A DNA stretch of 64,000 nt from the NCBI GenBank assembly GCA_000155435.1, contig DS990261.1, positions 1,139,366 to 1,203,365 of the forward strand, read 5' to 3'. Below are positions 21,134-38,670 of this stretch, in pieces (the stretch's first letter is position 1; every line of letters begins with the position of its first letter). Under the pieces are notes generated by a model. The model ran no database searches. It was given only the letters and a program-made list of their open reading frames with translations, and was not told the DNA's origin. The position numbers and the translations under genes are program-made. Source of the DNA: Clostridiales bacterium 1_7_47FAA. GTDB lineage: Bacteria > Bacillota > Clostridia > Lachnospirales > Lachnospiraceae.

Positions 21134-21188
21134 TTATGGGATTTCGGCTGAACCGGTAATCTTAGCAAATGTAATATAGATGACATAA

Positions 21189-21243
21189 CAGGAATGCCTG
21201 TAGGTCCGGACCGCTGTCCGGAACCTCAGGCATTCCTGTTTTA
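21189..21243. terminator. Bidirectional terminator between htpG and a sigma-54 activator
   Basis: A 12-bp stem (21189-21200 with 21227-21238) holds a second inner stem (GGTCCGGAC / GTCCGGA) and is followed by TTTT. It serves two convergent genes. Confidence 0.85.
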
Positions 21244-21266: not shown

Positions 21267-22229
21267 TCATATATCCTTTAGCCTATGGTTCAGGGCTGCC
21301 CGGTCCATGCCAAGGATCCGCGCAGCCTCATCCATATCCTGCGTATGACGCAGGACCTCCGTGATATACGTTTTTTCAAACTCGGCAACCGCCTGTTTTA
21401 AGGACTTGAACTCCGGTTCCTGGGATATCCGGGGGGCCGGGCTGTGGGAAAAACGGTAGTTCTCTTTCAGAAGGGGACCTGTTATCTCGGACGCATCCTC
21501 CAGTACGTAAAGCTTTTCCATGAAATTCTGTATCTCCCGGATATTGCCCAGCCACTCCTGATCCATCAGGAAGTCCATGGCTTCCGGTGAAAATGTTTTC
21601 TGGCAGCCATAAATCTGTCCGAACCGCAGGGAAAGGTATTCTATCAGGGCGCGTATGTCCTGCCTGCGTCTGGATAAGGGAGGGATATCAAAGGACACCA
21701 CGTTGAGGCGGTAATATAAATCCAGCCGGAAGTCCCCGGCCTTTATCATCTTGGGAAGGCTGCGGTTGGTGGCGGCAATGATGCGGATGTTGACGGATGT
21801 GTCCTCAGTGGAACCGATGCTCCTCATGCTGTGCTCCTGGACCACCTGAAGAAGTTTTGTCTGTAAATCCAGGTCCAGCTCGCCGATTTCATCCAGGAAC
21901 AAGGTTCCTCCTGCTGCCTGGGCAACCAGCCCCTGGCGGCCGGAACCGCTGCTTCCGGTAAACGCGCCTGACTCGTAGCCGAAGAACTCGGATTCAAACA
22001 GTTCAGACGGGATGGCGCTGCAGTTAATGTGGATGAAGGGCGCCCCGGCCCTGGGGCTGTGGCGGTGGATGAACTTTGCAAGGCAGTCCTTCCCGGTGCC
22101 GGAAGCGCCTGTAATCAGTATGTTGGCGTCAGTGGGGGCGATGCTCAGCGCATCGGAATACAGCTTTACCATGCTGCTGTCCCTGGCCACAATCCCCTCA
22201 TTTAAAAGAATGTCACTAAAATGTTCCAT
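21267..22229 (-). CDS. Sigma-54-dependent activator without sensor domain
   Basis: A 320-residue bacterial enhancer-binding protein that would remodel sigma-54 RNA polymerase using ATP. The AAA+ core has Walker A GASGTGKD, the sigma-54-contact loop ESGAFTG, Walker B GGTLFLDEIGELD and an arginine-finger region. A Fis-type helix-turn-helix ends the protein (AARILGMDRAALNHRLKDI). Only about 20 residues precede the AAA+ domain, so there is no PAS, GAF or receiver input. It is either constitutive or controlled by another protein, possibly the PAS-bearing paralog next to it. A partial copy of the 166-bp repeat lies just upstream of its start. Confidence 0.9.
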   Translation of the reverse strand: MEHFSDILLNEGIVARDSSMVKLYSDALSIAPTDANILITGASGTGKDCLAKFIHRHSPRAGAPFIHINCSAIPSELFESEFFGYESGAFTGSSGSGRQGLVAQAAGGTLFLDEIGELDLDLQTKLLQVVQEHSMRSIGSTEDTSVNIRIIAATNRSLPKMIKAGDFRLDLYYRLNVVSFDIPPLSRRRQDIRALIEYLSLRFGQIYGCQKTFSPEAMDFLMDQEWLGNIREIQNFMEKLYVLEDASEITGPLLKENYRFSHSPAPRISQEPEFKSLKQAVAEFEKTYITEVLRHTQDMDEAARILGMDRAALNHRLKDI

Positions 22230-22249
22230 ATCGGTATCTTACCTCGGCT

Positions 22250-22302
22250 GTTGCCCCCTGGGATGTGCAGATGGCGGAAATGAATTTTCAAACACGTCCT
22301 GG
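22250..22302. mobile_element. Partial end of the 166-bp repeat family, copy B
   Basis: The last 35-40 bases (GCAGATGGCGG, then ATTTTCAAACACG and TCCTGG) match the right end of the copy at 4993-5158. Further upstream the similarity fades. It lies between the two activator genes. Confidence 0.6.
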
Positions 22303-22346
22303 CGCCATCGTGTCAGTGCAGGGCATTTCCATGTTTTATGTGTGTT

Positions 22347-23756
22347 TTAAATGCCGTATTTCTTGCGCTTTTTGGAAAGTGTGGAAATATCCACCCCCAT
22401 GGCTTCCGCTGCCGCGGTGGTGGTCTTGTGGCGTTTCAGGGCTTCACAGATCAGACGTTTTTCCAAAAGGACGGTGGCATCCTTCAGGTTCAGGTCCGGG
22501 GAATCCAGGTCTGAAATCATTCCAAGAATGCTTTCCCCTCCCGGTACCGTAAGGGAGGATGGAAGCTCTGCAGGGGTAATCACGTCATTGGTGCCGATTA
22601 CCACCAGGCTTTCGATTATGTGCATCAGTTCCCGGATATTGCCCGGCCAGTCATGGCGCATAAGGACATCCATGGCGGAAGCGCCCATGGTTTTGTGGGT
22701 GGAGTATTTTTTGTTGAAGCGGTTCAGGAATGCATTTACTAAAAGGGGGATTTCCACTGTCCGCTCACGCAGCGGCGGAATCTCCACTGTCACAACGTTC
22801 AGCCTGTAATATAAATCCAGACGGAATTGTCCGTCCTTAACCATCTGTTCCAGATTGCGGTTGGTGGCGGCGATGATGCGGATATCCAAAGGCACGGTCC
22901 TGGCCGACCCGATACGCCGTACGCTCCGCTCCTGGACCACCTGTAAGAGCTTTGCCTGTATGTCAAGGCCAAGCTCACCGATTTCATCTAAGAACAGGGT
23001 GCCGCCGTCGGCCAGTTCAATAAGGCCGGTCTTACCGGTCTTGGATGCACCTGTAAATGCTCCGGCCTCGTATCCGAACAGCTCGCTTTCAAACAGGCTT
23101 TTTGGAATGGCCCCAAGGTTAACATGGATGAAATTCCTGTTTTTACGGTTGCTGATGGAGTGGATGAATTTGGCATACACATCCTTGCCCACCCCGGACT
23201 CGCCCAGGATCATCACCGAGGTGGTGACTGAGGCAAGCCTGGTGGCTATTTTATAAATCTGCTTCATCCGTATATCTGAGACAATGATATCCTTGGATAA
23301 AAGGGAGGAGGTCAGCAGTTCATTCAACTGGGATTCCAGGGCCAGGTTCCTGGCATTTAACTGGTTTAGCTCGGACTGCATGCGGATGGATTCGCTGCAG
23401 TTGGTGACAGAGTAAATCAGGTACCTGATAACACCGCCGCTGTCCCGCACAGGGGTCAGGGTCGTGGCAATGAAGTCCTCATTGGGATAGGTTACGATGT
23501 CGGTAAGCTCCTCGCCTGTTTCCAGCACCTGGTCCGCCATTACGGGACCGGACAAAGTGACCAGGTTCCTGCGGGATATGATCCGTATATCCTGGCCGAT
23601 AAAATCTTTTACGTTAAAGCCCGCCATGGCGCTGTAGTAATCATTGCCCCATAATATCATACCCTTTGCGTCCGCAATGATGATTCCCAGCTTGCAATGG
23701 TCTAAAAGGCAGTACAATGTCTGAATATCAAGTTCTTTTGTTTCACTGTTCTCCAC
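22347..23756 (-). CDS. PAS-domain sigma-54-dependent activator
   Basis: Enhancer-binding protein of 469 residues. An N-terminal PAS sensor (about residues 15-120, GIIIADAKGMILWGNDYYSAM) precedes a short coiled linker. The AAA+ domain follows with Walker A GESGVGKD, the sigma-54 loop EAGAFTG, Walker B GGTLFLDEIGELG, and a Fis-type helix-turn-helix at the end. The GTG at 23756 is preferred because ggag lies 7 bases ahead; a frame from 23783 exists without a ribosome site. It is divergent from the acyl-CoA operon and is its most likely activator, sensing a small molecule through PAS. Confidence 0.9.
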   Translation of the reverse strand: MENSETKELDIQTLYCLLDHCKLGIIIADAKGMILWGNDYYSAMAGFNVKDFIGQDIRIISRRNLVTLSGPVMADQVLETGEELTDIVTYPNEDFIATTLTPVRDSGGVIRYLIYSVTNCSESIRMQSELNQLNARNLALESQLNELLTSSLLSKDIIVSDIRMKQIYKIATRLASVTTSVMILGESGVGKDVYAKFIHSISNRKNRNFIHVNLGAIPKSLFESELFGYEAGAFTGASKTGKTGLIELADGGTLFLDEIGELGLDIQAKLLQVVQERSVRRIGSARTVPLDIRIIAATNRNLEQMVKDGQFRLDLYYRLNVVTVEIPPLRERTVEIPLLVNAFLNRFNKKYSTHKTMGASAMDVLMRHDWPGNIRELMHIIESLVVIGTNDVITPAELPSSLTVPGGESILGMISDLDSPDLNLKDATVLLEKRLICEALKRHKTTTAAAEAMGVDISTLSKKRKKYGI

Positions 23757-24275
23757 GGTCAATCTCCATTCTCTTATCATCACTGATGGTAACCCGATTA
23801 AGCAATGCCCTGTTCAGCGGCCAGCTCCTGTTATTAAGAATAGAACATCATTAATTTTTTGTCAAACACTGTTTGGATGATTATTCCTGACAACGATAAA
23901 AACAAGAATGATATTTGTGCAATGTGTCGGTGCCTGATCTTGAAAAAAATCATAATCCATGTTAAAAACATAGCAGGAATTTTGAAAAAAATCAACATCT
24001 TAGTTGATTTATTTTTTCCGACAATAGTTTTAATTCAAGCAAAAAAATAAATAATATTTTTTTTGTTTTTTATTATCACTGTATTTACAAGGTATTTTCT
24101 ACATTTCTTTTGTCTGTTCCCTCTTTTTATCAGGGCAAAAAAGCCGATATCCAAAAAAACAGGAAAGAAAATTGCTATATATCAGGGCAGAGGGTAAAAA
24201 AATAACACCAGAGTCATTTCAACCATGGATTGTTAATTTTTTTACAAATCAAAGACTTATTTTAAGGAGGGGCTT
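23757..24275. promoter_or_regulatory. AT-rich control region of the acyl-CoA operon
   Basis: About 520 bases without a gene, far more AT-rich than the surroundings. It holds the inverted repeats CAAAC/GTTTG (about 23863-23875) and ATCAAC/GTTGAT (23991-24008), which are candidate enhancer sites. The latter is about 150 bp ahead of a putative sigma-54 promoter, the usual distance. The repeated word ATCAGGGCA is also visible twice. Roles are inferred. Confidence 0.5.
24161..24176 (+). promoter_or_regulatory. Candidate sigma-54 (-24/-12) promoter
   Basis: AGGAAAGAAAATTGCT has the invariant GG, ten bases, GC and a full TTGCT -12 element. The -24 half matches TGGCAC only in part. It lies 100 bases before the acyl-CoA dehydrogenase start, and two activator genes are adjacent, which supports it. 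Confidence 0.5.
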
Positions 24276-25427
24276 ATGAACAAATATTTTTTAACTGAGG
24301 ACCAGCTGATGATTCAGGAACTGGCAAAAAAGTTTGCTGACGAGGTAGTGGCGGCAACGGTAACGGAACTGGACGAGAAGCATGAATTCCCCATGGCAGA
24401 GGTGAAACAGTGCGCGGAGATGGGCTTTTTAGGGGTCTGTGTGCCGGAAGAGTACGGCGGCGCAGGACTGGACCATTTAAGTGACGTCCTGGTCATGGAA
24501 CAGCTTGCGCGCCATTCCTCTTCCCTGGCCTCCATCATCGATGCCCATGCATCCCTTGGAAGCATGCCTATCCTCATGGCGGGTTCTGAAGAGCAGAAAC
24601 AGAAATATCTGGCTCCGGCAGCAACCGGGGAGACACTGTGCGCCTTTGCACTGACCGAACCGCAGTCAGGTTCTGATGCGGCCCAGATCCGTACGACCGC
24701 TGTCCTGGACGGGGATGAGTGGGTAATCAACGGCTCCAAGGCATTCATCACCAACAGTACATATGCATCCACATTCCTGGTGGCTGCAAAAACAGATCTG
24801 GAGGCAAAGGGTAGCCGCGGTATTTCCATTTTCATTGTTCCTGCAGGCCTTCCGGGATTTGAGGTGGGCAAGCCTGAGGAGAAGATGAGTAACCGCAGTT
24901 CCTATTCCTGTCCATTGTCCTTTACCGATGTGCGCATCCCGAAGGAGAACCTGGTAGGTGAGCTGAACCGCGGGTTCCCAATCTTCATGAAGTGTGTGGA
25001 TGACGGCCGTGTGGCAATCTCCGCAGTGGCGGTGGGCATGGCACAGGGAGTCCTGGAGCGCGCGGCCAAATATTCCAAGGAGCGTGTGACCTTTGGCCAT
25101 CCCATCTGTGAGAACCAGGCCATTGCGTTCAAGCTGGCCGAGATGGCAACTGAGATTGAGGTGGCAAGGGCCATGCTGTACAACACGGCACGCATGAGCG
25201 ACAACGGGGTTCCCTTCAGCAAGGAAGCAACCATGTGTAAGATGTTCTGCTCCGAGATGTGCGTAAGGGTATGTGATATGGGCCTTCAGATCATGGGCGG
25301 CTATGGCCTGTGCAATGAGTATGAGGTGGAGCGTTTCTACCGGGATGCAAAGCTTCTGACCATTGGGGAAGGGACGTCTGAAATCTGCCGCATGGTGGTC
25401 GGAAGGCATGTGCTGAAAGAATACTAA
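24276..25427 (+). CDS. Short-chain acyl-CoA dehydrogenase
   Basis: FAD enzyme that oxidises acyl-CoA to 2-enoyl-CoA, or runs in reverse, exchanging electrons with EtfAB. 383 residues, standard length. FAD and substrate motifs ALTEPQSGSDA (about 126-136) and AFITNSTYA are present, and the C-terminal RDAKLLTIGEGTSEICR carries the catalytic Glu365. First gene of a long operon, with ribosome site aaggagg. EtfB and EtfA lie nine and ten genes downstream. Sequence alone does not settle the acyl chain or whether the complex bifurcates electrons. Confidence 0.92.
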   Translation: MNKYFLTEDQLMIQELAKKFADEVVAATVTELDEKHEFPMAEVKQCAEMGFLGVCVPEEYGGAGLDHLSDVLVMEQLARHSSSLASIIDAHASLGSMPILMAGSEEQKQKYLAPAATGETLCAFALTEPQSGSDAAQIRTTAVLDGDEWVINGSKAFITNSTYASTFLVAAKTDLEAKGSRGISIFIVPAGLPGFEVGKPEEKMSNRSSYSCPLSFTDVRIPKENLVGELNRGFPIFMKCVDDGRVAISAVAVGMAQGVLERAAKYSKERVTFGHPICENQAIAFKLAEMATEIEVARAMLYNTARMSDNGVPFSKEATMCKMFCSEMCVRVCDMGLQIMGGYGLCNEYEVERFYRDAKLLTIGEGTSEICRMVVGRHVLKEY

Positions 25428-25471
25428 AAATCAATAACCGGACAGGATCCGGGATACAGGAGGGGTTTTAG

Positions 25472-25939
25472 ATGAAACGTTCATTTTTGTACCTGAGTGA
25501 GTTCCATGTGGGTGATACGTTCACCACGCTGTCAAGAACCGTCACGGAGACGGATGTGGTGCTGTTTGCAGGGATAACGGGGGATAACAACCCAATCCAC
25601 ACGGACAGGACTTATGCGGAAAGCCTGCCGTTTAAGAGCAGGATTGCCCATGGCCTTCTGGGCGCAGGCATTGCCACCGGCCTGTGGGGCCGTATGGGCC
25701 TGGTGGACGGTTCCGCCATTGCGGCGCTGAGCACGGAGTGGAAGTTCGTAGGCGCCATCAAGATAGGGGATACCATCCACTGTGAGGTGGAGGTGCTGGA
25801 AGCCAAGCAATCCAAATCCAAGCCGGACAGGGGCGTGCTGAATATCCAGTATACCATCCTGAACCAGGACAATCAGGTCTGCCAGGTGGGAAGCATGGCA
25901 ACCATGCTGTACTGGGCGCCGCCAAAAGAAAAGGAATGA
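25472..25939 (+). CDS. MaoC-like enoyl-CoA hydratase/dehydratase
   Basis: 155-residue hot-dog-fold protein of the MaoC / (R)-specific enoyl-CoA hydratase family. The hydratase motif FAGITGDNNPIHTDRTYAES supplies the catalytic Asp and His (about residues 36-44). It would interconvert (R)-3-hydroxyacyl-CoA and 2-enoyl-CoA, linking the dehydrogenase before it to the SDR behind it. The ATG at 25472 follows caggagggg; the gap to the SDR gene is 13 bases. It is short, single-domain, and complete. Confidence 0.88.
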   Translation: MKRSFLYLSEFHVGDTFTTLSRTVTETDVVLFAGITGDNNPIHTDRTYAESLPFKSRIAHGLLGAGIATGLWGRMGLVDGSAIAALSTEWKFVGAIKIGDTIHCEVEVLEAKQSKSKPDRGVLNIQYTILNQDNQVCQVGSMATMLYWAPPKEKE

Positions 25940-25952
25940 GGAGGAATTACAT

Positions 25953-26705
25953 ATGGAAATCAGAAGATATGATGATAAAATCGCGGTTGTAACAGGCGCT
26001 GCCAATGGAATCGGGCTTAGCATGGTAAAGCGGCTGGTGGAAGAGGGGGCCAGGGTGGCTGCCCTGGATATTGATACCGAAACAATGGAAAAGGAATATG
26101 CGGGACAGGAGGAAGACATTTTTAAGGTTTACTGTGACGTATCGGAAAAAAAGAGCGTGGACGAGGCCATCGCAAAGGTGTTAGGGCACTATGGAAGGAT
26201 TGATGTGCTGTTCAGCAATGCGGGAATCATCGGGCGCCAGAGCCTTCTGGATACAACCGAGGAGACATGGCGCAAGGTAATTGATATCAACTTAAACGGC
26301 ATGTTCTTCGTGAACCAGGCAGTGCTGCGCTCCATGGTGGAAAAAGGAATAAAAGGAGCAGTGGTCAATACCAGCTCCATTGCCTCCGCAACCGTATCCA
26401 CCAACACAGGCGCCTACAGCGCCAGCAAGGGAGGTGTTACCCAGTTTACCAAATGGGCTGCCCTTGAGATGGCGCCTCACGGAATCCGCGTCAATGCAAT
26501 CGGGCCGGGAACCAGCGTTACCAGGATAACCGAGGGCACGCGTTTTAACCCGGAGAGGAATGAGAAATTCCTGCGCAATATACCTATGGGCCGGTATGGG
26601 GAGCCTGAGGAGGCAGCGGCGGCAGCCCTGTATCTGGGCAGCGAGGATGCCAGCTACATCACTGGCGTCACATTGCTGGAGGACGGCGGGTTCTCACTAT
26701 TCTAG
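25953..26705 (+). CDS. SDR-family oxidoreductase (3-hydroxyacyl/hydroxy acid type)
   Basis: 250-residue short-chain dehydrogenase with a complete active site: cofactor motif TGAANGIG (14-21), NAG near residue 90, Ser141/Ser142, Tyr155 and Lys159 in YSASK. Acidic residues at the end of the second strand (ALDID, 37-41) favour NAD(H). In this operon it could oxidise a 3-hydroxyacyl-CoA or a free hydroxy acid, or reduce a 3-oxo group. It resembles 3-oxoacyl-reductase and 3-hydroxybutyrate dehydrogenase types alike, so the substrate is left open. Ribosome site gaggagg. Confidence 0.88.
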   Translation: MEIRRYDDKIAVVTGAANGIGLSMVKRLVEEGARVAALDIDTETMEKEYAGQEEDIFKVYCDVSEKKSVDEAIAKVLGHYGRIDVLFSNAGIIGRQSLLDTTEETWRKVIDINLNGMFFVNQAVLRSMVEKGIKGAVVNTSSIASATVSTNTGAYSASKGGVTQFTKWAALEMAPHGIRVNAIGPGTSVTRITEGTRFNPERNEKFLRNIPMGRYGEPEEAAAAALYLGSEDASYITGVTLLEDGGFSLF

Positions 26706-26719
26706 GGAAAGGTTGAGAT

Positions 26720-28024
26720 ATGGATATGAGTTGGAAAGAAAAATATGCAGATAAGATTTATACGGCGGCAGAAGCGGTCTCCCATGTTAAATCAGGGGAA
26801 AAGATTATCTTTGGGGACTGGGTCAGCGAGCCGCCCGCATTGGTGGAAGCGCTGGTAAACCGGGCGGATGAACTTAAGGGAGTGGAAATCATACACGGAA
26901 TGAGCCCGGGACCCAATGCTTATGTGGCTCCGGAATACGAGGGTATTTTCCATCACACGTCCCTGTTCATCGGACCTAAGACCAGGAAAGCCTATGCGGA
27001 GAAACGGATTGATTACATCGGCGGCACTACCTTCAGCCGCTGGCCGGACCTGTTCGCAAAGAACCCGGACTTAAATCCACACTGGGCGTTCATCCAGGTT
27101 TCAGAACCGGATGAGGAGGGGATGTGCAGCTTTGGCAATGCGTGCTGCTTCTCAGAACCTGCCGCCAGGACAGCGGACCGCATCATTGCGCAGATTAATC
27201 CCAAGATGCCTACGCTGGGGGGCAAGAAGATTTCCCTGGATAAGATTGATTATATTGTACCGGCTGAATCCGGTCTTTATACCATAGGAAGGGCGGAGAT
27301 AGACGCCAAGACCCAGACCATTGCCGATTATGTGGCGGAACTGGTGGAGGACGGGGCTACCATCCAGCTGGGGATCGGGGCATTGCCGGATGCCATTGCA
27401 AGGAATCTGATGGGCAAGAAGGATTTGGGCGTACACTCTGAGACGCTGACCGAAGCCATGATGGAACTGGTGCAGGCCGGGGTCATCAACAACAGTAAAA
27501 AGACCCTGAACCCGGGCATATGCATAGGCGCCCAGGCAGCCGGTTCCGAGAAGTTCTATGAGTTCATTGACCACCATCCGCTGTTTGCCGTATATCCGGT
27601 GGATTACGTCAACGACCCATATGTGGTGGGGCAGAACTATAAGCAGACCTCCATCAACTCCTGCATGGAGGTGGACCTGAAAGGACAGGTGAATTCCGAG
27701 ACCGTGGGCGGACGCCAGTACAGCGGCATCGGCGGACAGCTGGACCACGTGCGGGGCGCCCAGCTGTCAGAGGGCGGCAAGTCCATCCTGGCCCTTAACT
27801 CCACGGCCAGGCAGGACACTATTTCCAAAATCGTGCCATATTTTGCGCCGGGGAACGTAACCACCATATCCAGGTATGATGTCCACTACATCGTGACGGA
27901 ATATGGCGTTGCGGACCTTAAGTACAAAACAGAGCGCCAGAGGGCCCTTGCCCTTATATCCATCGCCCATCCCAAGTTCCGCGACGAGCTTAAGTTTAAG
28001 GCAGCGGAAATGGGAATTCTGTAA
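26720..28024 (+). CDS. Acetyl-CoA hydrolase/CoA-transferase family protein
   Basis: 434-residue class I-type CoA-transferase, closest in pattern to 4-hydroxybutyrate and butyryl-CoA:acetate CoA-transferases. The catalytic glutamate lies in VNSETVGG; SGIGGQLDHVRGAQLSEGGKS and IVTEYGVADLK are family hallmarks. GLGIG-type CoA contacts appear as QLGIGALPDA. It would activate the incoming acid with CoA from acetyl-CoA or another thioester, or release the end product as free acid. It starts 14 bases after the SDR stop. Confidence 0.88.
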   Translation: MDMSWKEKYADKIYTAAEAVSHVKSGEKIIFGDWVSEPPALVEALVNRADELKGVEIIHGMSPGPNAYVAPEYEGIFHHTSLFIGPKTRKAYAEKRIDYIGGTTFSRWPDLFAKNPDLNPHWAFIQVSEPDEEGMCSFGNACCFSEPAARTADRIIAQINPKMPTLGGKKISLDKIDYIVPAESGLYTIGRAEIDAKTQTIADYVAELVEDGATIQLGIGALPDAIARNLMGKKDLGVHSETLTEAMMELVQAGVINNSKKTLNPGICIGAQAAGSEKFYEFIDHHPLFAVYPVDYVNDPYVVGQNYKQTSINSCMEVDLKGQVNSETVGGRQYSGIGGQLDHVRGAQLSEGGKSILALNSTARQDTISKIVPYFAPGNVTTISRYDVHYIVTEYGVADLKYKTERQRALALISIAHPKFRDELKFKAAEMGIL

Positions 28025-28038
28025 TTAGGAGATGTGCA

Positions 28039-29253: not shown

Positions 29254-29315
29254 GGAAAGTCCGCGGTGATGATAGTTGTGGATGAGTACTGTAAAATAGC
29301 AGAGGGAGAAATAAT

Positions 29316-30587: not shown

Positions 30588-30619
30588 TCATAAAAATACC
30601 TTTCAAAAAGGAAGATGAC

Positions 30620-32278
30620 ATGAAAGCTTTAGAGGAACGCCGGAAGGACCTGCTGGCCCGTTTTCCTGTATGGAAGAAAATGACGCTTTACCAAGGTCTG
30701 GCGTCAAAGGCGGCCGAAGGTCCGGAGCGTGTGTTTTTACTGGAAGAGGGAAGGGAATTTACCTACGGGGAAGTCCTTGGGGAAGCGGACCGCATAAGCG
30801 CGGCCTTATGGTCCATGGGACTTACAAAGGGCGGCTGTGTGGCCGTTGCCCTGAGTAACCGGATTGAATTTGTCACGGTCACATTTGCCCTGGCGAAAGC
30901 CGGGGCAGTGAAGGTGCCTGTGAACCGCAATGCAAGCCTGAGGGAACTGGAGTATATCCTGGAACAGACCGGGGCCAGGTTCCTGATTACGGAAAGACCT
31001 GTGGAGGCTGAAGATAAGTCTGCCTGTCCCGGATTGTGCCATATCATCTGCCTGGATGGCACCGCAGGGGCGGACGGACGGTACCTTTCATGGGAGGAAT
31101 TTCTGGAAAAGGGGAAGGCCCCGGTCATGGAGATGCCCTGGCCGGATGCGGACAGCATTTCCGACATCATTTATACTTCGGGAAGCACAGGGCGGCCGAA
31201 AGGAGTGATGCTTTCACATGACATGCTGTGGCGCAGCGCATTTGCCAGCTGCGTGAACAGGGGATATGAGACGGGGCGCAGGATATATGTACCCCTTCCC
31301 CTGTTCCATGTATACGGTTATGTGGAAGGGCTGCTGGCGGCAATCCTGGTAGGCGGGAGCATCCTGATCACCAGAGGCAAATTTGACGTGAAAAAGGCAC
31401 TGGATGCCATGGAACGCTGCGGTGCCAATGATATCTTAAGCGTGCCGTCCATCATGATGAAACTGCTCCAATATCCTGAGCTGGGACAATACCCGCTGAA
31501 GGAACTCCACGCAGTCTACTGTTCCGCCTCCATCTGTCCAAGATGGGTATGGAAGGCGATACGGGAAAGACTCAGGGTACAGGAAGTGATCACGGGATAC
31601 GGGATGACCGAGGTGTGCGGGGCATCCATGCAGACAGATCCTGATGATGATGATGAGGTCCTGGCCGGACGTGTTGGGAAAATCCTCTATGGAGGCCCGG
31701 CAGGGGATGAGCGCCTGAATGGAAATATAATCGAGTACAAGGTGATTGACGAAAACGGTGAGGAACTGCCTTTAGGAGGCTGCGGCCAGCTGCTGTGCAG
31801 GGGACCGATCGTGACCAGGGGATATTACCGGGACGGGGAGGCAACTGCCCTGGCCGTGGATCAGGAAGGATGGCTGAAAACAGGGGATGTGGGGTATTTT
31901 GATGAAAAGGGGTACCTCAAGTTCCTGGGCCGCTGCAATGATATGTATAAGATTAACGGGGAAAATGTCTCGCCCCAGTACCTGGATAAAATCATATCCA
32001 AGTGTGAACACGTGGTAACGGTGGAGACGGTAGGCGTGCCGGATGAGAAGCTGGGGTATATCGGCGCTGCGTTCGTGGATGCGGACAACCCGGACCAGGA
32101 GACAAAGGAATCCATTGTGGATTACTGTAAAGCCAACCTGGCGCCATACCAGGTGCCCAGATATTTTTTCTTTACGGACAGCTGTACCTGGCCTCACACA
32201 ACCACTGGCAAGGTACAGAAATTCAAGCTTCGGGAGATTGCAAGGAAACGGATGGAGGAAGAGGATGGCCAGGTTTGA
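30620..32278 (+). CDS. Acyl-CoA ligase (AMP-binding, ANL superfamily)
   Basis: 552 residues. It activates a carboxylic acid as an acyl-adenylate, then as a CoA thioester. P-loop YTSGSTGRPKG, the A5 motif GYGMTEVCG, KTGDVGYFDEKGYL and the hinge GRCNDMYKINGENVSP are all present. The catalytic Lys stretch TTTGKVQKFKL sits near the C-terminus, so the enzyme is complete. The ATG at 30620 follows aaaaggaag. The last 14 bases overlap the next gene, suggesting coupled translation. Having both a ligase and a CoA-transferase suggests two entry routes or activation of two different acids. Confidence 0.9.
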   Translation: MKALEERRKDLLARFPVWKKMTLYQGLASKAAEGPERVFLLEEGREFTYGEVLGEADRISAALWSMGLTKGGCVAVALSNRIEFVTVTFALAKAGAVKVPVNRNASLRELEYILEQTGARFLITERPVEAEDKSACPGLCHIICLDGTAGADGRYLSWEEFLEKGKAPVMEMPWPDADSISDIIYTSGSTGRPKGVMLSHDMLWRSAFASCVNRGYETGRRIYVPLPLFHVYGYVEGLLAAILVGGSILITRGKFDVKKALDAMERCGANDILSVPSIMMKLLQYPELGQYPLKELHAVYCSASICPRWVWKAIRERLRVQEVITGYGMTEVCGASMQTDPDDDDEVLAGRVGKILYGGPAGDERLNGNIIEYKVIDENGEELPLGGCGQLLCRGPIVTRGYYRDGEATALAVDQEGWLKTGDVGYFDEKGYLKFLGRCNDMYKINGENVSPQYLDKIISKCEHVVTVETVGVPDEKLGYIGAAFVDADNPDQETKESIVDYCKANLAPYQVPRYFFFTDSCTWPHTTTGKVQKFKLREIARKRMEEEDGQV

Positions 32279-33221
32279 ACATGTGGCGGGCAACACGGGC
32301 TGCCTGAGTCTTAAGGGAAACTGTATCCCTGTGTACTGCATGACCGAAAAGGAATGGATCATCATGGATTCCGGCTCACGCTTTGACCGGGATGAGTTAA
32401 TCCATTATCTGAAGGAACATACAATCAATATAAAAGCAGTGCTCACCAGCCATGCCCATTATGACCATGTGGGGAACCATGCCGTGCTTCAGGAAATGTT
32501 CGGATGTGAATGTGTCATGACGGCCTTTGACGCAGGGGCGCTCCATGACACGGTGGCCTTAAAATCCTGTTTTTATTCCTGCACGGAAACGGAAATCAGG
32601 AAGAATTTCTCTGATATGGTGTGCAGGGCTGACAGGCTGATAGAAGATGGGGCAAAGGAAATCCTGGTGTCCGGCGTCCGGTTTAAGGTAATTGGGCTAC
32701 CGGGCCATGCGGCCAGCCAGGTGGGGTTCGTGACGCCGGATCAGGTGGCGTATCTGGGCGACTGCCTGCTGGGACCTTCTGAGGCCCGGCAGGAAAAGGT
32801 AATCTATATGCTCAACTGGAAGACAGCCCTTGATACCATGAGGATGGCGGCAGGGCGTTTTGACGGCTCTCCCTGCATCCTGTCCCATTATGGGATATAC
32901 AGAGATATGAAGCCTGTGCTGGAAGCCAATATCCAGGCATTTGAAGAGATGGAAGGGCGCATCCGGGATATCATGCCGGAGGAGTTTTATCTGGAGGACA
33001 TGGTGAAAGGACTGATAGGGCATATGGGAATCCTGGTAAAGAGCCTGCCCAAAGCCCGGCTCATGGAGCGGGTAGTGCGTTCCATCCTGGAATATATGGC
33101 TGAGACAGGCGGACTGGATATAGGGATAAAGGACGGTGTGATTGTATATACCTGCGGCGGTCAATCCCATGTGTCCGGCCAATCCCGGCCCCATGTGTCC
33201 GGCAATACCCGGACACACTAA
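32265..33221 (+). CDS. MBL-fold metallo-hydrolase
   Basis: 318-residue metallo-beta-lactamase-fold hydrolase with the metal-binding motif TSHAHYDHVGNH (about residues 62-73), a later His in GLPGHAASQVG and an Asp in YLGDCLLG. Its overlap with the CoA ligase gene suggests a linked role such as thioester or lactone hydrolysis (inference). The C-terminal 17 residues (HVSGQSRPHVSGNTRTH) are encoded by two direct copies of a 24-base unit and look like a repeat-derived tail rather than part of the fold. The ATG at 32265 lies behind gaggaagag. Confidence 0.82.
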   Translation: MARFEHVAGNTGCLSLKGNCIPVYCMTEKEWIIMDSGSRFDRDELIHYLKEHTINIKAVLTSHAHYDHVGNHAVLQEMFGCECVMTAFDAGALHDTVALKSCFYSCTETEIRKNFSDMVCRADRLIEDGAKEILVSGVRFKVIGLPGHAASQVGFVTPDQVAYLGDCLLGPSEARQEKVIYMLNWKTALDTMRMAAGRFDGSPCILSHYGIYRDMKPVLEANIQAFEEMEGRIRDIMPEEFYLEDMVKGLIGHMGILVKSLPKARLMERVVRSILEYMAETGGLDIGIKDGVIVYTCGGQSHVSGQSRPHVSGNTRTH

Positions 33222-33250
33222 CAACAATGAAAATAAGAGGTGGATGATAT

Positions 33251-34054
33251 ATGAATATATTAGTTTGTATCAAACAGGTACCGGATACAACCGAAATTAA
33301 AATCGATCCGGTAACCAATACATTGATCCGTGCAGGCGTTCCAAGCATCGTCAATCCCTTTGACGCATATGCGCTGGAGATTGCCGCCCGGATTAAGGAT
33401 GTGACACCGGGAACAAAGATAACGCTTTTGTCCATGGGACCGGAGCAGGCCAAGGCGGCTTTAAAGGAGTGCCTGGCCGTGGGCGGTGACAAGGCGTACC
33501 TGGTCAGCGACAGGGCCTTTGGCGGAGCCGATACCCTGGCCACCAGCTATACCCTTAAGACAGCCATTGAAAAGCTGGAGGAGACAGAAGGTAAATTCGA
33601 TATCATTTTCTGCGGCAAACAGGCCATTGACGGCGATACGGCCCAGGTCGGACCTGAGATTGCGGAGCATCTTGATTATCCCCAGGTCACCTACGCGGTG
33701 GAAGCCAGGGTGGAAGGCGGGGAGGTCCTGGTAAAACGTGAGACAGGGGACGGCTTCGAGGTGCTGGCAGCCAGCATGCCGTGTGTTGTCACGGTTACAA
33801 AGCCCTACTTTGACCCAAGGTTCCCTACCATCAAGTCCAAGCTGGCAGCAGGGCGTGCGCAGATACCGACCCTGACAGCGGACGACCTGCCTGTGGACAG
33901 GGAAAGCATCGGTTTAAAAGGTTCCCCTACCAAGGTTAAGAAAAGCTTTACTCCTCCCCAGAAGCAGGGTGGGATCAAGATTTCTGAGGACAGCAGCGAG
34001 GCATCGGCCAGGAAGTTATTCGCCATGTTAAGCGATGCAAATATCATTGGATAG
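33251..34054 (+). CDS. etfB: Electron transfer flavoprotein beta subunit
   Basis: 267 residues, the small subunit of the Etf heterodimer that carries electrons to or from the acyl-CoA dehydrogenase. N-terminal MNILVCIKQVPDTTEIKID, the nucleotide-binding stretch CGKQAIDGDTAQVGPEIAEHL (about 117-137) and VTKPYFDPRFPTIKSKLAA are canonical. It is followed after 14 bases by etfA. Clostridial EtfAB pairs often bifurcate electrons between NADH, ferredoxin and the dehydrogenase; that is possible here but not shown. Confidence 0.95.
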   Translation: MNILVCIKQVPDTTEIKIDPVTNTLIRAGVPSIVNPFDAYALEIAARIKDVTPGTKITLLSMGPEQAKAALKECLAVGGDKAYLVSDRAFGGADTLATSYTLKTAIEKLEETEGKFDIIFCGKQAIDGDTAQVGPEIAEHLDYPQVTYAVEARVEGGEVLVKRETGDGFEVLAASMPCVVTVTKPYFDPRFPTIKSKLAAGRAQIPTLTADDLPVDRESIGLKGSPTKVKKSFTPPQKQGGIKISEDSSEASARKLFAMLSDANIIG

Positions 34055-34068
34055 AGGGAGGAACCGAC

Positions 34069-35076
34069 ATGGAGGCTAAGAATAAGGATTTATGGGTATT
34101 TATAGAAACGGATGAGGAAGGAAAGGCCAGGAACGTGGGCCTGGAGCTTCTGAATCCGGGAAGGCGCCTGGCTGATAAGCAGGGCGGGGAACTGATAGGC
34201 GTGGTAATCGGATGCGGCATCGGGGAGGCTGTGAAGGCAGCCGTTGCATACGGGGCTGACAAGGTAATCGCCGTGGACGGGGAAGAATATAAACATTACA
34301 CCACCGACGCTTACACGGACGCGGTCTGCGCCCTGGTTGAAAAATACGGGCCTACCACCATGCTGATCGGCGCAACCAATGAGGGCCGGGACATGGGGCC
34401 GCGTATTTCCTGCCGTCTGAGGACAGGACTGACAGCGGACTGTACGGGCCTTGATATTGATGAGGAGAGCGGCAACATGGCATGGACACGTCCTGCCTTT
34501 GGAGGAAACCTGATGGCAACCATCCTCTGCCCCAACCACCGCCCACAGATCGGCACGGTCCGTCCGGGCGTGTTCAAAAAGGGTGAAAGGGATGATGCAA
34601 GGCAGGCAGAGGTCATCCATGAGGATATCCACATCACGGCTGACAGGATACGCACCCGCCTGGTGGAGGTCATCCATGAGATGGGGGCTGAGAACGTGGA
34701 TCTGGAGGGCGCTGAAATCATCGTGTCCGGCGGCCGCGGGGTTGGAGGGCCTGAAGGCTTTGCACCCTTAAAGGAACTGGCTGACCTGGTAGGCGGTGTT
34801 GTGGGGGCGTCCCGCGCCGCAGTGGATTCCGGCTGGATTGCCCATGCCCATCAGGTGGGACAGACCGGCAAGACCGTTGGACCCAAGGTGTATATTGCCT
34901 GCGGCATATCCGGGGCCATACAGCACGTGGCGGGAATGAGCGGTTCCGGCACCATCATAGCAATCAACAAGGATCCGGAAGCCCCAATCTTTCATATTGC
35001 TGATTACAGCGTGGTAGGGGATTTAAAGCTGGTAATCCCCGTACTGATCCAGGAAATCAAGAAGAGCCGCGCTTAG
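34069..35076 (+). CDS. etfA: Electron transfer flavoprotein alpha subunit
   Basis: 335-residue large Etf subunit. The C-terminal FAD domain shows [44 protein letters not shown] and [17 protein letters not shown]. No extra N-terminal ferredoxin domain is present, unlike some clostridial EtfA. Its partner is the preceding etfB, and the electron acceptor or donor is presumably the acyl-CoA dehydrogenase at the head of the operon. The ATG at 34069 follows gagggaggaacc. Confidence 0.95.
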
Positions 35077-35097
35077 ACGAAAGGAAGTCATTTCCCT

Positions 35098-37023
35098 ATG
35101 TATGAATGTTTATTTGAAGAAAACCACATTGGCACCATGAAGCTGAAGAACCGCCTGATCGTGCCGGCCATGTCCACCCGTTTTGTGGGGGAGGACGGCA
35201 GGGCCACGGAGCAGTTCATTGCCTACCATGAAACCAGGGCAAAGGGCGGCTGGGCGCTAATCATTACGGAGGATTTCCTGATTGACGAGGGAGTGGGCGT
35301 TAAGAAGGAACTGCCGGGACTTTGGGATGACGGGCAGATTGAAGGTTATAAGAAGTGCACGGACCGGATCCACGCTGCAGGCGGGAAAATCTGCGCCCAG
35401 ATTTACCATGCGGGAAGGAATACGCACAGCGGCATCACAGGCATCCATAACGTGGGTCCGTCCCCCATCTGCGACCCTTCCAACCGGGAGGTGCCCCATG
35501 AACTGACGGTTGGGGAAATTAAGGCCATTGAGGAAAAATTCGCGGATGCGGCGCTGCGGGCCAGGAAGGCCGGATTTGACGCAGTGGAGCTTCACGGCGC
35601 CCATGGATACCTGATTGCCCAGTTCCTGTCCCCGTTCTCCAACCGGAGGGTGGATGAGTACGGAGGCACGCTGGAGAACCGTGCCAGGTTTGCAGTGGAG
35701 ACAGTGAAGGCGGTAAAGGAAAGGGCGGGATGGGATTATCCTGTGCTGCTGCGGATTTCAGCCACGGAGTTCATTGACCAGGGCATGAATGTGGAGCAGG
35801 CAAAGGCCATCTGCCGGCTGGTGGAACAGGCCGGGGCGGATGCCATCAATTGTTCCCAGTCAGGGCCGGCCACATTTTACAATACGGTTCCCAGCTTCTA
35901 TGTGCAAAGCGGCGCGTTTGTGGAACTGGCAGATGAGATAAGGAAGGTTGTGGGCATCCCGGTTGCAACGGTGGGGAGGATTAACAGCCCGCAGCTGGCG
36001 GAGGAGGTAATCCTGTCCGGCAAGGCAGACCTGGTGGCTATGGGGCGGGCTTCCGTGGCAGACCCGTACCTGCCCGCTAAGCTCCAATCAGGGGATACGC
36101 AGTCCATACTCACCTGCATCGGATGCTGCCAGGGATGCCTTGGGAGCACGTTAAGGAAAAAGACACTTACCTGCCTTGTGAATCCATTTGCAGGCAAGGA
36201 AACCACATATTCGCCGGAGGACAGGGCAGGACATATTAAGAAGATAGTGGTTGCCGGAGGCGGCATCAGCGGCTGTGAGGCAGCCATTGTGGCGGCCATG
36301 CGGGGCCATCAGGTAATCCTGGCGGAGCGGGAAGCACGGCTGGGAGGCCAGTGGATTGCGGCCGGCATCCCATGCAGCAAGGCGGATTTTCCTTCCTTTG
36401 TGAGCTGGCAGAAGCATATGCTTTTACGCCTGGGAGTGACCGTGCTTCTGAACCAGGAAGCGGACCGGGAGTTCCTTCTTAAGACGGCGCCGGATCTGGT
36501 GCTTGACGCAACGGGAAGCACGCCTGTGATGGTGCCTGTTCCCGGAATCGAAACCGCGGGAACTGCATTTGCCCAGGAAGTCCTTACAGGGAAGAAACCG
36601 TTCGGCAATCATCCGCTGATCATAGGCGGAGGGCTTGCGGGTGCGGAAACCGCGGAGTTCATCGCAGGCTATCAGGTTCCGGTGGAGCTGGTGGAGATGC
36701 GGGAGGCCATTGCCATTGACTGCGAGCCTGGCCCGAAGTATTTCCTTCTGAAGGCATTGAGGGAGCTGGGCGTGTCCATGTACACCATGACAACCGTGAA
36801 GCGGGTGGAAGGAACAACCGTTGTCCTGGAAAAGGATGGCAGGGAAATGCGTGTGGAAGGCATTGACCAGATCATCCTGGCAGCGGGGATGCGTCCATCA
36901 CAGGGACTTAGGGAAATGCTGGCTGATACGGGGCTGGAGGTAAGGCCCATCGGGGATGCGGCCTCGGTGAAAAACGGGTTTTCCAATGTGCAGGAGGCAT
37001 TTGCGGCTGCCTGTGATATCTGA
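35098..37023 (+). CDS. FMN/4Fe-4S/FAD enoate or 2,4-dienoyl-CoA reductase-like flavoprotein
   Basis: 641-residue member of the old-yellow-enzyme/2,4-dienoyl-CoA reductase family, which also holds clostridial 2-enoate reductases and bile-acid BaiCD/BaiH. The N-terminal FMN barrel (to about 330) contains LHGAHGYLIAQFLSPFSNRR. The Fe-S cysteines are in CIGCCQGCL and LTCLVNP. An FAD motif GGGISGCEAA and an NAD(P)H motif GGGLAGAETAEF follow. It would reduce a C=C bond of an enoate or enoyl-CoA with NAD(P)H. It starts 21 bases after etfA and belongs to the same transcript. Which substrate it uses is open. Confidence 0.88.
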   Translation: MYECLFEENHIGTMKLKNRLIVPAMSTRFVGEDGRATEQFIAYHETRAKGGWALIITEDFLIDEGVGVKKELPGLWDDGQIEGYKKCTDRIHAAGGKICAQIYHAGRNTHSGITGIHNVGPSPICDPSNREVPHELTVGEIKAIEEKFADAALRARKAGFDAVELHGAHGYLIAQFLSPFSNRRVDEYGGTLENRARFAVETVKAVKERAGWDYPVLLRISATEFIDQGMNVEQAKAICRLVEQAGADAINCSQSGPATFYNTVPSFYVQSGAFVELADEIRKVVGIPVATVGRINSPQLAEEVILSGKADLVAMGRASVADPYLPAKLQSGDTQSILTCIGCCQGCLGSTLRKKTLTCLVNPFAGKETTYSPEDRAGHIKKIVVAGGGISGCEAAIVAAMRGHQVILAEREARLGGQWIAAGIPCSKADFPSFVSWQKHMLLRLGVTVLLNQEADREFLLKTAPDLVLDATGSTPVMVPVPGIETAGTAFAQEVLTGKKPFGNHPLIIGGGLAGAETAEFIAGYQVPVELVEMREAIAIDCEPGPKYFLLKALRELGVSMYTMTTVKRVEGTTVVLEKDGREMRVEGIDQIILAAGMRPSQGLREMLADTGLEVRPIGDAASVKNGFSNVQEAFAAACDI

Positions 37024-37053
37024 ACCTGCCGGATGGCAGTTGCCCATTGAGGC

Positions 37054-37204
37054 CCGTTGTGCGGCATGGGTTCCGTTGTGCGGCATAGGTTCCGGTGTGC
37101 GGCGTGGGTTCCGGTGTGCGGCATGGGTTCCGGTGTGCAGCATAGGTTCCGGTGTACGGCATGGTTCCGGTGTACGGCATGGGTTCCGGTGTATGGCATG
37201 AATT
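37054..37204. repeat. 19-bp tandem repeat, eight units, before rpoN
   Basis: Consecutive units of the form CCGGTGTGCGGCATGGGTT start at 37054, 37073, 37092, 37111, 37130, 37149 (18 bases), 37167 and 37186, with 1-5 changes each. It begins about 30 bases after the reductase stop and ends 40 bases before the rpoN start. The array reads as an open frame on both strands only because of its composition. It has no unique spacers, so it is not CRISPR. Confidence 0.9.
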
Positions 37205-37244
37205 CCTGTGGATATGGCTTCCGTTAATAAGAGGAGGGGATTGC

Positions 37245-38621
37245 GTGGAAAATGGTCTGGTCATGAGCCAGGAACTGAAACAGAAGCAGACGCTGTCCGC
37301 GTACCAGTACCAGTCCCTTCATATCCTTCATCTGGGCAATGCCCAGGTAGGCGAACTGCTGAAAAAAGAATATCTGGAGAATCCCTTCATTGAACAGAGG
37401 GAGGGGTTCTCGGGAGAAGAGTACCAGTGGCTGGAATATTATAAGGCCAATGTAAAGGAAAGCAGGCCAATTCCAGGGAATGGCAGCGGACCGGAAGCCG
37501 GGGATGCGGACGGGGACAATGGAAAGGAGTATGGTACATCCGGGTGCGACTGGAGGATGGATATCAAGGAACAGCTTTATGATGGCCGCACACCGGAGAA
37601 CCGGCGGCGCCTGTTGGAACAGATGATCCTTCTTCTGGATGACCATGGCTTCCTGGCCTTTTCTGAGCGGGAAGGAAGCAGGCTGTTAAAGATACCGGTC
37701 AGGCAGTACCGCGTTCTCAGGAAACAGCTGATGGAGCTGGAGCCTGAGGGAATCGGATGCGTTTCCATGGGAGAGTATTTCCTGTTCCAGCTTATGAAAA
37801 AAGGAATCCATGTGCCGGACGCCTTCCGGGATCTCTGCATGAACCATCTGGAAGATATAACAGAGATGACCTTTGTCCAGATTGCGCATATGATCCACGC
37901 CTCCTTTCAGGAGGTCAAGCGGTGGGTACGGGTCCTGGGTACGCTTAAGCCGTATCCAATCCGGGATTCCGGGGAAGGCTGCGCTGTGGAAACCGTGATT
38001 CCCGACATTTTAATCGTACCCAGGGGCGGTGGACTGGAGGTCAGGGTAAATGATTATTATATGCGCCAGTACTGTGTCAGCGATTTTTACCGCAGGACCA
38101 TGAAGGATGAGGATAATGAAGAACTGCAGGAATATATGGACAGGAAGCTATTGAGGGCCAGGCAGATATATCTGGCAGTGAGCAGGCGCAACCGGACCAT
38201 CTGCAGGATGGGGGAGTACCTGCTGAGGGTCCAGGGCAGCTTTTTCAGAGGCGGATTCCTTACCGGGATGACATATAAGATGTTTGCGGATGAACTGGAA
38301 GTCCATGAATCCACGGTATGCCGCATTGTCTCCAACAAATATGTGTCATGTCCCCAGGGCATCCTGCCCCTTAAGTATTTCTTCAGCAAGGGCGTGGACG
38401 TGGTGGATGGTCAGGGCCGCGTCACAGGCACCATGGGGAAATCCAGTGTCAGGGAACTGATTGCATTCCTCATTGAAAAGGAACCGGGAGACAGGCCCTA
38501 CAGTGACGGGAAGCTGGCTGATATGCTGAAAAAGGAATATGGCCTGAGGATTTCCAGGAGGACCGTTTCAAATTACCGGGAGGAAGCCGGGATACGGAGC
38601 GTGTATGAGCGGAAGGTGTAG
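37245..38621 (+). CDS. rpoN: RNA polymerase sigma-54 factor (RpoN)
   Basis: 458-residue sigma-54, needed by the enhancer-binding proteins encoded at 21.3-23.8 kb. The Gln-rich activator-interaction region I is at the N-terminus (QELKQKQTLSAYQYQSLHIL, LKKEYLENPFIEQ). The core-binding region and the DNA-binding domain follow, with the RpoN box SRRTVSNYRE near the C-terminus. The GTG at 37245 follows gaggaggggattgc; an ATG at 37263 is the alternative. Its position as last gene of the acyl-CoA run suggests the locus carries its own sigma factor. A strong terminator follows. Confidence 0.93.
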   Translation: MENGLVMSQELKQKQTLSAYQYQSLHILHLGNAQVGELLKKEYLENPFIEQREGFSGEEYQWLEYYKANVKESRPIPGNGSGPEAGDADGDNGKEYGTSGCDWRMDIKEQLYDGRTPENRRRLLEQMILLLDDHGFLAFSEREGSRLLKIPVRQYRVLRKQLMELEPEGIGCVSMGEYFLFQLMKKGIHVPDAFRDLCMNHLEDITEMTFVQIAHMIHASFQEVKRWVRVLGTLKPYPIRDSGEGCAVETVIPDILIVPRGGGLEVRVNDYYMRQYCVSDFYRRTMKDEDNEELQEYMDRKLLRARQIYLAVSRRNRTICRMGEYLLRVQGSFFRGGFLTGMTYKMFADELEVHESTVCRIVSNKYVSCPQGILPLKYFFSKGVDVVDGQGRVTGTMGKSSVRELIAFLIEKEPGDRPYSDGKLADMLKKEYGLRISRRTVSNYREEAGIRSVYERKV

Positions 38622-38635
38622 GGAAGGATAGAAGG

Positions 38636-38670
38636 GCGGGAAAAACTGGTTTATGGTTTTCCCGCTTTTT
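38636..38670 (+). terminator. Terminator after rpoN
   Basis: Stem GCGGGAAAA(A)C with GTTTTCCCGC followed by TTTTT; a strong rho-independent signal closing the sigma-54 locus. Confidence 0.9.

Follow-up and report, generated by a model that had tools for sequence, protein, structure and literature searches.

A divergent second rpoN at the end of a two-activator CoA-ester operon in a gut Lachnospiraceae genome: a possible pathway-dedicated sigma-54 module

We analyzed a 64,000-nucleotide stretch of the genome of Clostridiales bacterium 1_7_47FAA (contig DS990261.1; hereafter the window), in which positions 21267-38621 carry genes for two sigma-54 activators (enhancer-binding proteins, EBP1 and EBP2), a run of eleven genes for CoA-ester metabolism and transport, and rpoN, the gene for sigma-54 itself. 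Open reading frame (ORF) and Pfam scans recovered each of these gene classes, all named in an earlier reading of the letters of the DNA (the sequence-only reading), as an intact ORF. The two EBP genes lie on the minus strand, divergent from the eleven plus-strand genes, and rpoN follows the latter. As the earlier reading had also stated, the locus sits between two strong terminators, with hairpins of about -42 and -18.3 kcal/mol (Table 1). Our central finding is that a module conserved in Enterocloster, EBP1-EBP2 divergent from a CoA-ester operon, has here a second, highly divergent rpoN at its 3' end and is without a canonical sigma-54 promoter.

Both activators have the features of bacterial EBPs, namely an AAA domain (PF00158), a GAFTGA loop, which reads GAFTGS in EBP2, and a C-terminal helix-turn-helix (HTH); the PAS-like region of EBP1 scored slightly below the PF13426 cut-off (26.4 vs 27 bits). 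Gaps among the eleven operon genes are at most 62 bp. From the last of them, encoding a flavoenzyme of the old yellow enzyme (OYE) type, to the likely rpoN start there are 221 bp; this start is the GTG at 37245, preceded by AGGAGGGG, and the start at 37152 given by the ORF caller is probably too early. The 19-bp tandem repeat upstream of rpoN could be a length-variable control element. Several of its units (37054-37200) contain GG-N10-GC on one strand or the other.

Table 1. Features of the sigma-54 locus, in window coordinates (a point marks features without a strand).
Feature	Position	Strand	Basis or remark
Bidirectional terminator hairpin between htpG and EBP2	21187..21240	.	Fold, -41.6 / -42.7 kcal/mol, z about -10
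EBP2: sigma-54 activator, AAA and Fis-type HTH, GAFTGS, without N-terminal sensor domain	21267..22229	-	Pfam scan
EBP1: sigma-54 activator, PAS-like N-terminal region, AAA, HTH, GAFTGA	22347..23783	-	Pfam scan
Divergent control region	23784..24275	.	No canonical -24/-12
Candidate non-consensus -24/-12 element CAGGAAAGAAAATTGCT	24160..24176	+	Sole GG-N10-GC in 23701-24275, both strands
Acyl-CoA dehydrogenase (ACAD)	24276..25427	+	Nearest butyryl-CoA dehydrogenase/AcrC/CarC types
MaoC-type (R)-enoyl-CoA hydratase	25472..25939	+	
Short-chain dehydrogenase/reductase (SDR)	25953..26705	+	
CoA-transferase, 4-hydroxybutyrate/butyrate:acetate type	26720..28024	+	
Major facilitator superfamily (MFS) monocarboxylate transporter, L-lactate MFS/OxlT type	28039..29253	+	
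GntP-like permease	29316..30587	+	
AMP-forming acyl-CoA ligase	30620..32278	+	
Metallo-beta-lactamase (MBL)-fold hydrolase	32265..33221	+	Fold resembles PqsE and MBL proteins of Burkholderia; thioesterase activity guessed
Electron transfer flavoprotein subunit EtfB	33251..34054	+	
Electron transfer flavoprotein subunit EtfA	34069..35076	+	
Flavoenzyme, OYE/2,4-dienoyl-CoA reductase (BaiCD-like) family, with Cys cluster	35098..37023	+	
19-bp tandem repeat, 7.8 copies, OYE-rpoN gap	37054..37200	.	
Divergent second copy of rpoN (sigma-54), closing the run	37245..38621	+	
Intrinsic terminator 3' of rpoN	38632..38669	+	Fold, -18.3 kcal/mol, z -2.8

Sigma-54 is usually one shared factor per cell. 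The host genome (6.55 Mb in 107 contigs) gave two RpoN N-terminal-domain matches, the window copy and one on contig C107, the latter being by score the copy typical of the genus. RpoN matches were present in 28 of 98 genomes searched (the host's own and 97 relatives); within the genus, Enterocloster, 15 of 17 genomes had at least one RpoN and only the host genome had two copies. A recent duplication of the housekeeping rpoN was ruled out, since the two host proteins are only about 28% identical. The best identity of the window RpoN to any match was 35% among 397 genomes of the family (62 with a match), and a search of 398 genomes of the phylum (168 with a match at E <= 1e-40, a threshold that would overlook weaker second copies) gave one match per other listed genome, with at most 36% identity among the matches listed. 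The activator-interacting (AID), core-binding and DNA-binding domains of the window protein all scored above their Pfam cut-offs (PF00309, 36.3 bits; PF04963, 90.9 bits; PF04552, 131.0 bits). Its full-length match to the NCBIfam equivalog TIGR02395 fell narrowly below the cut-off (266.6 vs 277.35 bits), which is consistent with its divergence. A structure prediction made without an alignment was unusable (pLDDT 36).

The divergence extends to the parts of the protein that read the promoter. In two studies the RpoN box is described as binding the -24 element and the HTH region as binding the -12 element (PMC7175178, PMC5505868). We compared 57 aligned RpoN sequences from fetched loci; this set had been filtered to keep only sequences with the box RR and YR, which removed 3 of 86 candidate ORFs, one of them with HR. 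At the RpoN-box Lys, 54 sequences have K and two have A, and only the window copy has N (N474 of the 489-aa ORF); at the last Ser of the HTH motif STVSR, 53 have S, two T and one R, and only the window copy has C (C390). The RR and YR were kept in the window copy and in all other rows, as they were in 41 of 41 unfiltered rows. In the RpoN tree the window protein lies on a branch of length 2.51, compared to a median of 0.54.

A search with the MBL protein found the same operon in the sister Enterocloster genomes G016 and G013, as a fragment in G004, and in one more metagenome-assembled genome (L090). The gene set that the sequence-only reading had proposed to look for across genomes does recur, in at least three others, but the sister copies do not carry the sigma factor: rpoN was absent from the examined flanks of the G016 and G013 modules, the far upstream side of L090 lying outside the scope of the search. 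G016, G013 and G004 each had one RpoN N-terminal-domain match. Divergent from the operon, an EBP1 gene followed by an EBP2-like gene is present in G016 and G013 (the EBP2-like tandem gene at L219 and L220), and G004 also has two tandem EBP matches; sister EBP1 proteins are 50-54% identical to the window EBP1. Because the sisters have the EBP pair and no rpoN, we take the two activators to be part of the module and rpoN to be an addition in the window species. The gene order in G016, G013 and L090 is SDR, CoA-transferase, (MFS in L090), GntP-like permease, ligase, ACAD, MaoC, EtfB, EtfA, MBL and OYE, and differs from that in the window, where ACAD and MaoC stand at the front. Sister and window proteins share high identity in ACAD and MaoC (88-90%), EtfB/EtfA (73-82%), the CoA-transferase (74-76%) and SDR (70-71%). 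Values are much lower for MBL, ligase and permease (44-49%, with 53% for a short piece of the G004 MBL) and for OYE (38-39%). This pattern suggests that the core chemistry is common to the sisters and the window while the substrate-facing parts differ.

The chromosomal site was also informative. The neighboring gene htpG was found in 17 of 17 genomes of the genus, and in sister G011 a C-terminal remnant of EBP2 (L207:1968-2216; 58% identity over 84 residues) lies between htpG and ecsC, at the position of the window locus. Because this remnant persists there, the site is old in G011, and a recent insertion of the whole locus is not favored. The other 13 htpG neighborhoods that were fetched showed no trace of the locus. 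At a distance of about 3.5 kb from the sigma-54 locus, the window further holds a gene for a 409-aa sigma-70 family protein with regions 1.1 to 4 (16519-17748), and 9 of 14 sister htpG neighborhoods have a homologue.

We next compared the promoters. Upstream of the two sister operons whose promoter region could be read lie near-perfect -24/-12 elements, TTGGCACGATTAATGCT in G016 and TTGGCACAATTAATGCT in G013. The exact TTGGCAC pattern was non-discriminating genome-wide (9 occurrences vs 7 in the control), and a scan of EBP loci was therefore used in its place. Of the 21 PF00158 matches in the host genome we examined 13, leaving aside the two in the window and six weak ones: nine of these 13 loci had sites scoring at least 20 of 21.5, L152, L158 and L160 had none at the display threshold, and L159 had none above 18. 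A position weight matrix (PWM) was built from 16 sites scoring at least 19 from these nine loci. Leave-one-out scores of these sites were 11.7-25.1 bits and the sister promoters scored 19.0 and 15.9, compared to a maximum of 7.2 in the window control region, at a site without GC, and 4.8 at site 24160. Neither the PWM nor the pattern scan found a canonical -24/-12 promoter in this region. In the candidate element at 24160 the -12 half is the canonical TTGCT, and the -24 half, AGGAAA, deviates at -26, -23 and -21. The control region also holds direct repeats of TTGAAAAAAATCA at 23940 and 23982, 42 bp apart, which we guess to be candidate activator sites; the only words common to the window and sister control regions were A/T-rich ones.

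The missing sigma-54 site would also fit an operon that is now driven by sigma-A, with the EBPs and rpoN as relics or acting elsewhere in the genome, and the EBP2 remnant in G011 indicates that such a locus can decay. However, the genes for both EBPs and for RpoN are complete, the encoded proteins keep their domains and the activators their GAFTG loops, and the sole sigma-70-like plus-strand site in the gap among the matches listed agrees at 9 of 12 positions and lies about 360 bp from the first gene. We therefore regard a switch to sigma-A as improbable.

Second rpoN copies were also sought in other Clostridia. Among 396 genomes, 75 of which exceeded the cut-off with some matches that are not RpoN, two near-complete sigma-54 DNA-binding domains were found in six (G000, G111, G191, G348, G362 and G853, the G348 domains each in two stretches) and partial second copies in G102 and G420. 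In a second set, 110 of 391 genomes exceeded the cut-off, and G570 and G711 joined G000, the G570 copy being a short ORF. The tree holds seven of eight second copies, six of them on long branches (1.75-3.97 vs the median of 0.54) and L171 at 1.46. These placements are uncertain, and the tree neither shows nor excludes a single origin. Of eight second copies, six had an EBP gene within 6 kb, compared to 15 of 51 other rpoN genes (p = 0.019); the counts were 5 of 8 and 12 of 51 within 3 kb (p = 0.037) and 6 of 8 and 19 of 51 within 9 kb (p = 0.061), with the window EBPs, 13.4 kb from rpoN at the opposite end of the locus, scored as a miss. The arrangement in G362 (L145:1999-10448) is strikingly like that of the window: a second rpoN and an EBP gene are divergent from an enoyl-CoA hydratase-ACAD-EtfB-EtfA-MFS run. 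In G111 (L143:2928-10045) the second rpoN stands third, after genes for a permease and an amidohydrolase, and faces a PAS-type EBP with one CAGGCAT-type site on each side, and in G191 and G348 it adjoins an activator of the phosphotransferase system (PTS) type. Within 500 nt of EBP genes, T at -26 was found at 21 of 25 sites elsewhere vs 1 of 5 at second-rpoN loci (1 of 6 with L145; p = 0.011 and 0.004, respectively), and this difference is suggestive. A literature search on two rpoN genes in Firmicutes found nothing for the exact terms used, which does not show absence.

The same scans brought up a PTS-type (PRD/EIIA) sigma-54 activator (L182:9395-12343) whose residues 1-51 match the C-terminal part of the sigma-54 DNA-binding domain, which holds the RpoN box, above the cut-off (32.6 bits). 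Several ORFs of 942-995 aa matched at positions of about 98-160 of this profile, and no RpoN-box-like N-terminus was seen in two other PTS-type activators scanned (L169 and L087). An activator that bears the -24 reader of the sigma factor itself would merit attention.

Our favored reading, to which we give an even chance, is that the locus is a pathway-dedicated, self-amplifying sigma-54 module. In such a module EBP1 would sense the substrate or the redox state via its PAS-like region, and EBP1 and EBP2, perhaps as mixed hexamers, would occupy upstream sites, for which the repeats at 23940 and 23982 are possible candidates. From there they would activate RNA polymerase that contains the local RpoN and is positioned at the non-consensus site 24160, a site that the housekeeping sigma-54 would read poorly; the window sigma-54 perhaps has an altered -24 specificity. 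Transcription would read through the OYE gene into rpoN, so that induction would raise the level of the dedicated sigma factor and amplify itself. The sequence-only reading had likewise suggested a self-contained, dedicated regulatory module. The dedicated part of that suggestion gains from rpoN being a divergent second copy, from its absence from the sister modules and from the missing canonical promoter; that the module is self-contained is a step that we infer. A broader proposal, which we advance tentatively and consider possible but doubtful, is that clostridial sigma-54 paralogues have repeatedly turned private to one activator-operon module, and that here sigma factor and promoter co-diverged in the -24 element (K to N and S to C in the protein; TGGCAC to AGGAAA in the DNA), giving a natural orthogonal, self-amplifying circuit with rpoN as its last gene.

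Several observations count against the favored reading. Site 24160 is not significant by itself: in shuffles GG-N8-TTGCW arose in 5.4% (its strand) to 12.2% (both strands) and a score of at least 17 in 9.8% to 21%, and another control-region site outscores it on the PWM, which was built from sites chosen for high consensus score. Because shuffling allows for chance, we treat the missing canonical promoter as firm and the replacement site as tentative. The RR and YR of the RpoN box are intact, and the GG of the promoter is thus probably still read. A promoter of its own for rpoN could lie concealed in the 221-bp gap with its tandem repeat. The comparison at -26 was post hoc and drew on few loci, with two sites from L143; the second-rpoN locus L176 retains T at -26, and at L087 and L169 a comparable site was missing from the 500 nt next to the EBP gene. 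Furthermore, the RpoN box and HTH of G111 are canonical although its sites also lack the T, so that residue changes and base change are unlinked there. Genome-wide, AGGAAA-N5-TTGCW occurred 11 times vs 7 in a reversed control, without clear enrichment; a regulon of AGGAAA-type sites was accordingly rejected, and no wider regulon is apparent.

These counts also bear on the idea that the second RpoN chiefly serves promoters elsewhere and that its position downstream of the operon is incidental. The repeat-bearing gap that parts OYE from rpoN and the 11 genomic sites would allow this, whereas the closeness of that number to the control and the tendency of second rpoN copies in other genomes to adjoin activators point the other way, and we consider it very improbable. 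A stronger contender, though still an unlikely one, is a redundant extra sigma-54 that recognizes the same promoters as the main RpoN, the weak operon promoter being served by either factor and the linkage reflecting transfer or retention of a convenient package. The conserved RR, YR and most HTH residues, the canonical -12 element of site 24160 and the two rpoN copies with overlapping roles reported in other organisms are consistent with redundancy. However, the low identity to the RpoN proteins listed (at most 36%), the unique changes in both DNA-reading parts and the very long branch are hard to reconcile with it, and the canonical promoter is missing exactly where the second rpoN sits. If the dedicated module that we favor is real, it would show sigma-54 networks splitting into insulated circuits, in a phylum for which the literature consulted names no such case, and would offer a natural orthogonal set of sigma-54, promoter and activator for anaerobes, and the sister loci provide a matched comparison, with the same core pathway, the same kind of activator pair and an ordinary sigma factor.

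We also examined what the operon may act on. When 14 proteins of the locus were scanned against the curated NCBIfam cut-offs, only two reached one among the matches listed: the MFS protein scored 398.8 vs 320 on the equivalog 'L-lactate MFS transporter', and the SDR 229.7 vs 215 on a subfamily model named glucose 1-dehydrogenase. Neither fixes the substrate, in agreement with the earlier statement that it is not evident from any gene. Among solved structures the ACAD comes nearest to acyl-CoA dehydrogenases of clostridia, including the bifurcating enzymes 4l1f and 5ol2, with CarC (6fah) as the sixth-best PDB match; the protein scored below the acryloyl-CoA reductase AcrC model NF042972 (420.4 vs 640). 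The CoA-transferase is nearest to 4-hydroxybutyrate CoA-transferases, and the OYE-type flavoenzyme, with its Cys cluster, is nearest to 2,4-dienoyl-CoA reductase and below the BaiCD equivalog cut-off (NF041087, 515.8 vs 825). No additional Pfam domain was found in EtfA (335 aa). The MBL protein was predicted with confidence (pLDDT 87), and Burkholderia MBL proteins, LACTB2 and PqsE were among its top fold matches across most of the length, at 11-18% identity and rmsd mostly of 5-7 A, which makes these weak matches. PqsE is a thioesterase, and on the strength of the PqsE-like fold we guess the same activity for the MBL protein; an earlier assignment as a lactonase was dropped after the fold search, itself a weak basis. 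A single-sequence search of genome contigs found no close relatives of this protein, and an alignment search led to the sister operons. More distant relatives (25-29%) occur in Oscillospiraceae and other Clostridia (L091-L096, L098-L100), where no other operon gene matched nearby save a 27% ligase match in L092.

The ligase, CoA-transferase, ACAD and EtfBA lie together in one gene run. Such a set follows CoA-loop logic for enoyl-CoA reduction, as in caffeate respiration. The operon products would probably activate an unsaturated or oxygenated monocarboxylate, the ligase priming the cycle and the CoA-transferase recycling CoA; reduction through OYE, SDR, MaoC and ACAD/Etf steps would serve as an electron sink and probably involve flavin-based bifurcation, and the product would be released by the CoA-transferase or the MBL-fold hydrolase. 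A literature search on this enzyme combination found no paper, which does not show absence; the pathway may be undescribed, as the sequence-only reading had suggested. Shikimate or cyclohexanecarboxylate metabolism is one speculative candidate. The locus may tie an uncharacterized CoA pathway of gut Enterocloster to an inducer.

Among known pathways, the genes of caffeate respiration in Acetobacterium woodii, carABCDE, resemble the operon in encoding the parts of a CoA loop for enoate reduction: a CoA synthetase, a CoA-transferase and, together with EtfBA, an acyl-CoA dehydrogenase. In contrast to carABCDE, the operon adds OYE, MaoC, SDR, MBL and two permeases, its EtfA shows no additional Pfam domain, and CarC is not the best match of its ACAD. 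The bai operon, for 7-dehydroxylation of bile acids, shares an OYE-type flavoenzyme with CoA ligase, SDR and MFS; it differs in that the window OYE falls under the BaiCD cut-off, the CoA-transferase is of the 4-hydroxybutyrate type and ACAD/Etf are present.

On the regulatory side, a study of 1,414 organisms gives multiple rpoN copies in about 5% (PMC12316311), and the multi-copy species named in another are proteobacterial 'and a few others' (PMC3162934). A close parallel is Cereibacter (Rhodobacter) sphaeroides, whose RpoN1, RpoN2 and RpoN3 are described as specialized partners of NifA, FleQ and AprX (PMC11999139): there, too, one cell holds several sigma-54 paralogues, each with its own activator and gene set, and small promoter differences aid specificity. 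The promoter differences reported between RpoN paralogues lie at -11, and at -12 in Bradyrhizobium (PMC3162934). C. sphaeroides is an alphaproteobacterium with its change at -11, whereas the candidate site of the window has a canonical -12 TTGCT and changes in the -24 element; moreover, the window rpoN belongs to a catabolic locus in a gut member of the Lachnospiraceae, and its pairing with the activators, judged by linkage, is putative. Clostridia are enriched in acyl-CoA dehydrogenase and transporter genes with predicted sigma-54 control, and a sigma-54 activator beside acyl-CoA genes is by itself ordinary there (PMC12316311). The sister operons are of this type, with canonical promoters and no rpoN of their own, whereas the window carries a divergent rpoN; what is unusual here is a diverged rpoN inside a catabolic locus whose sister modules have no rpoN and a standard promoter.

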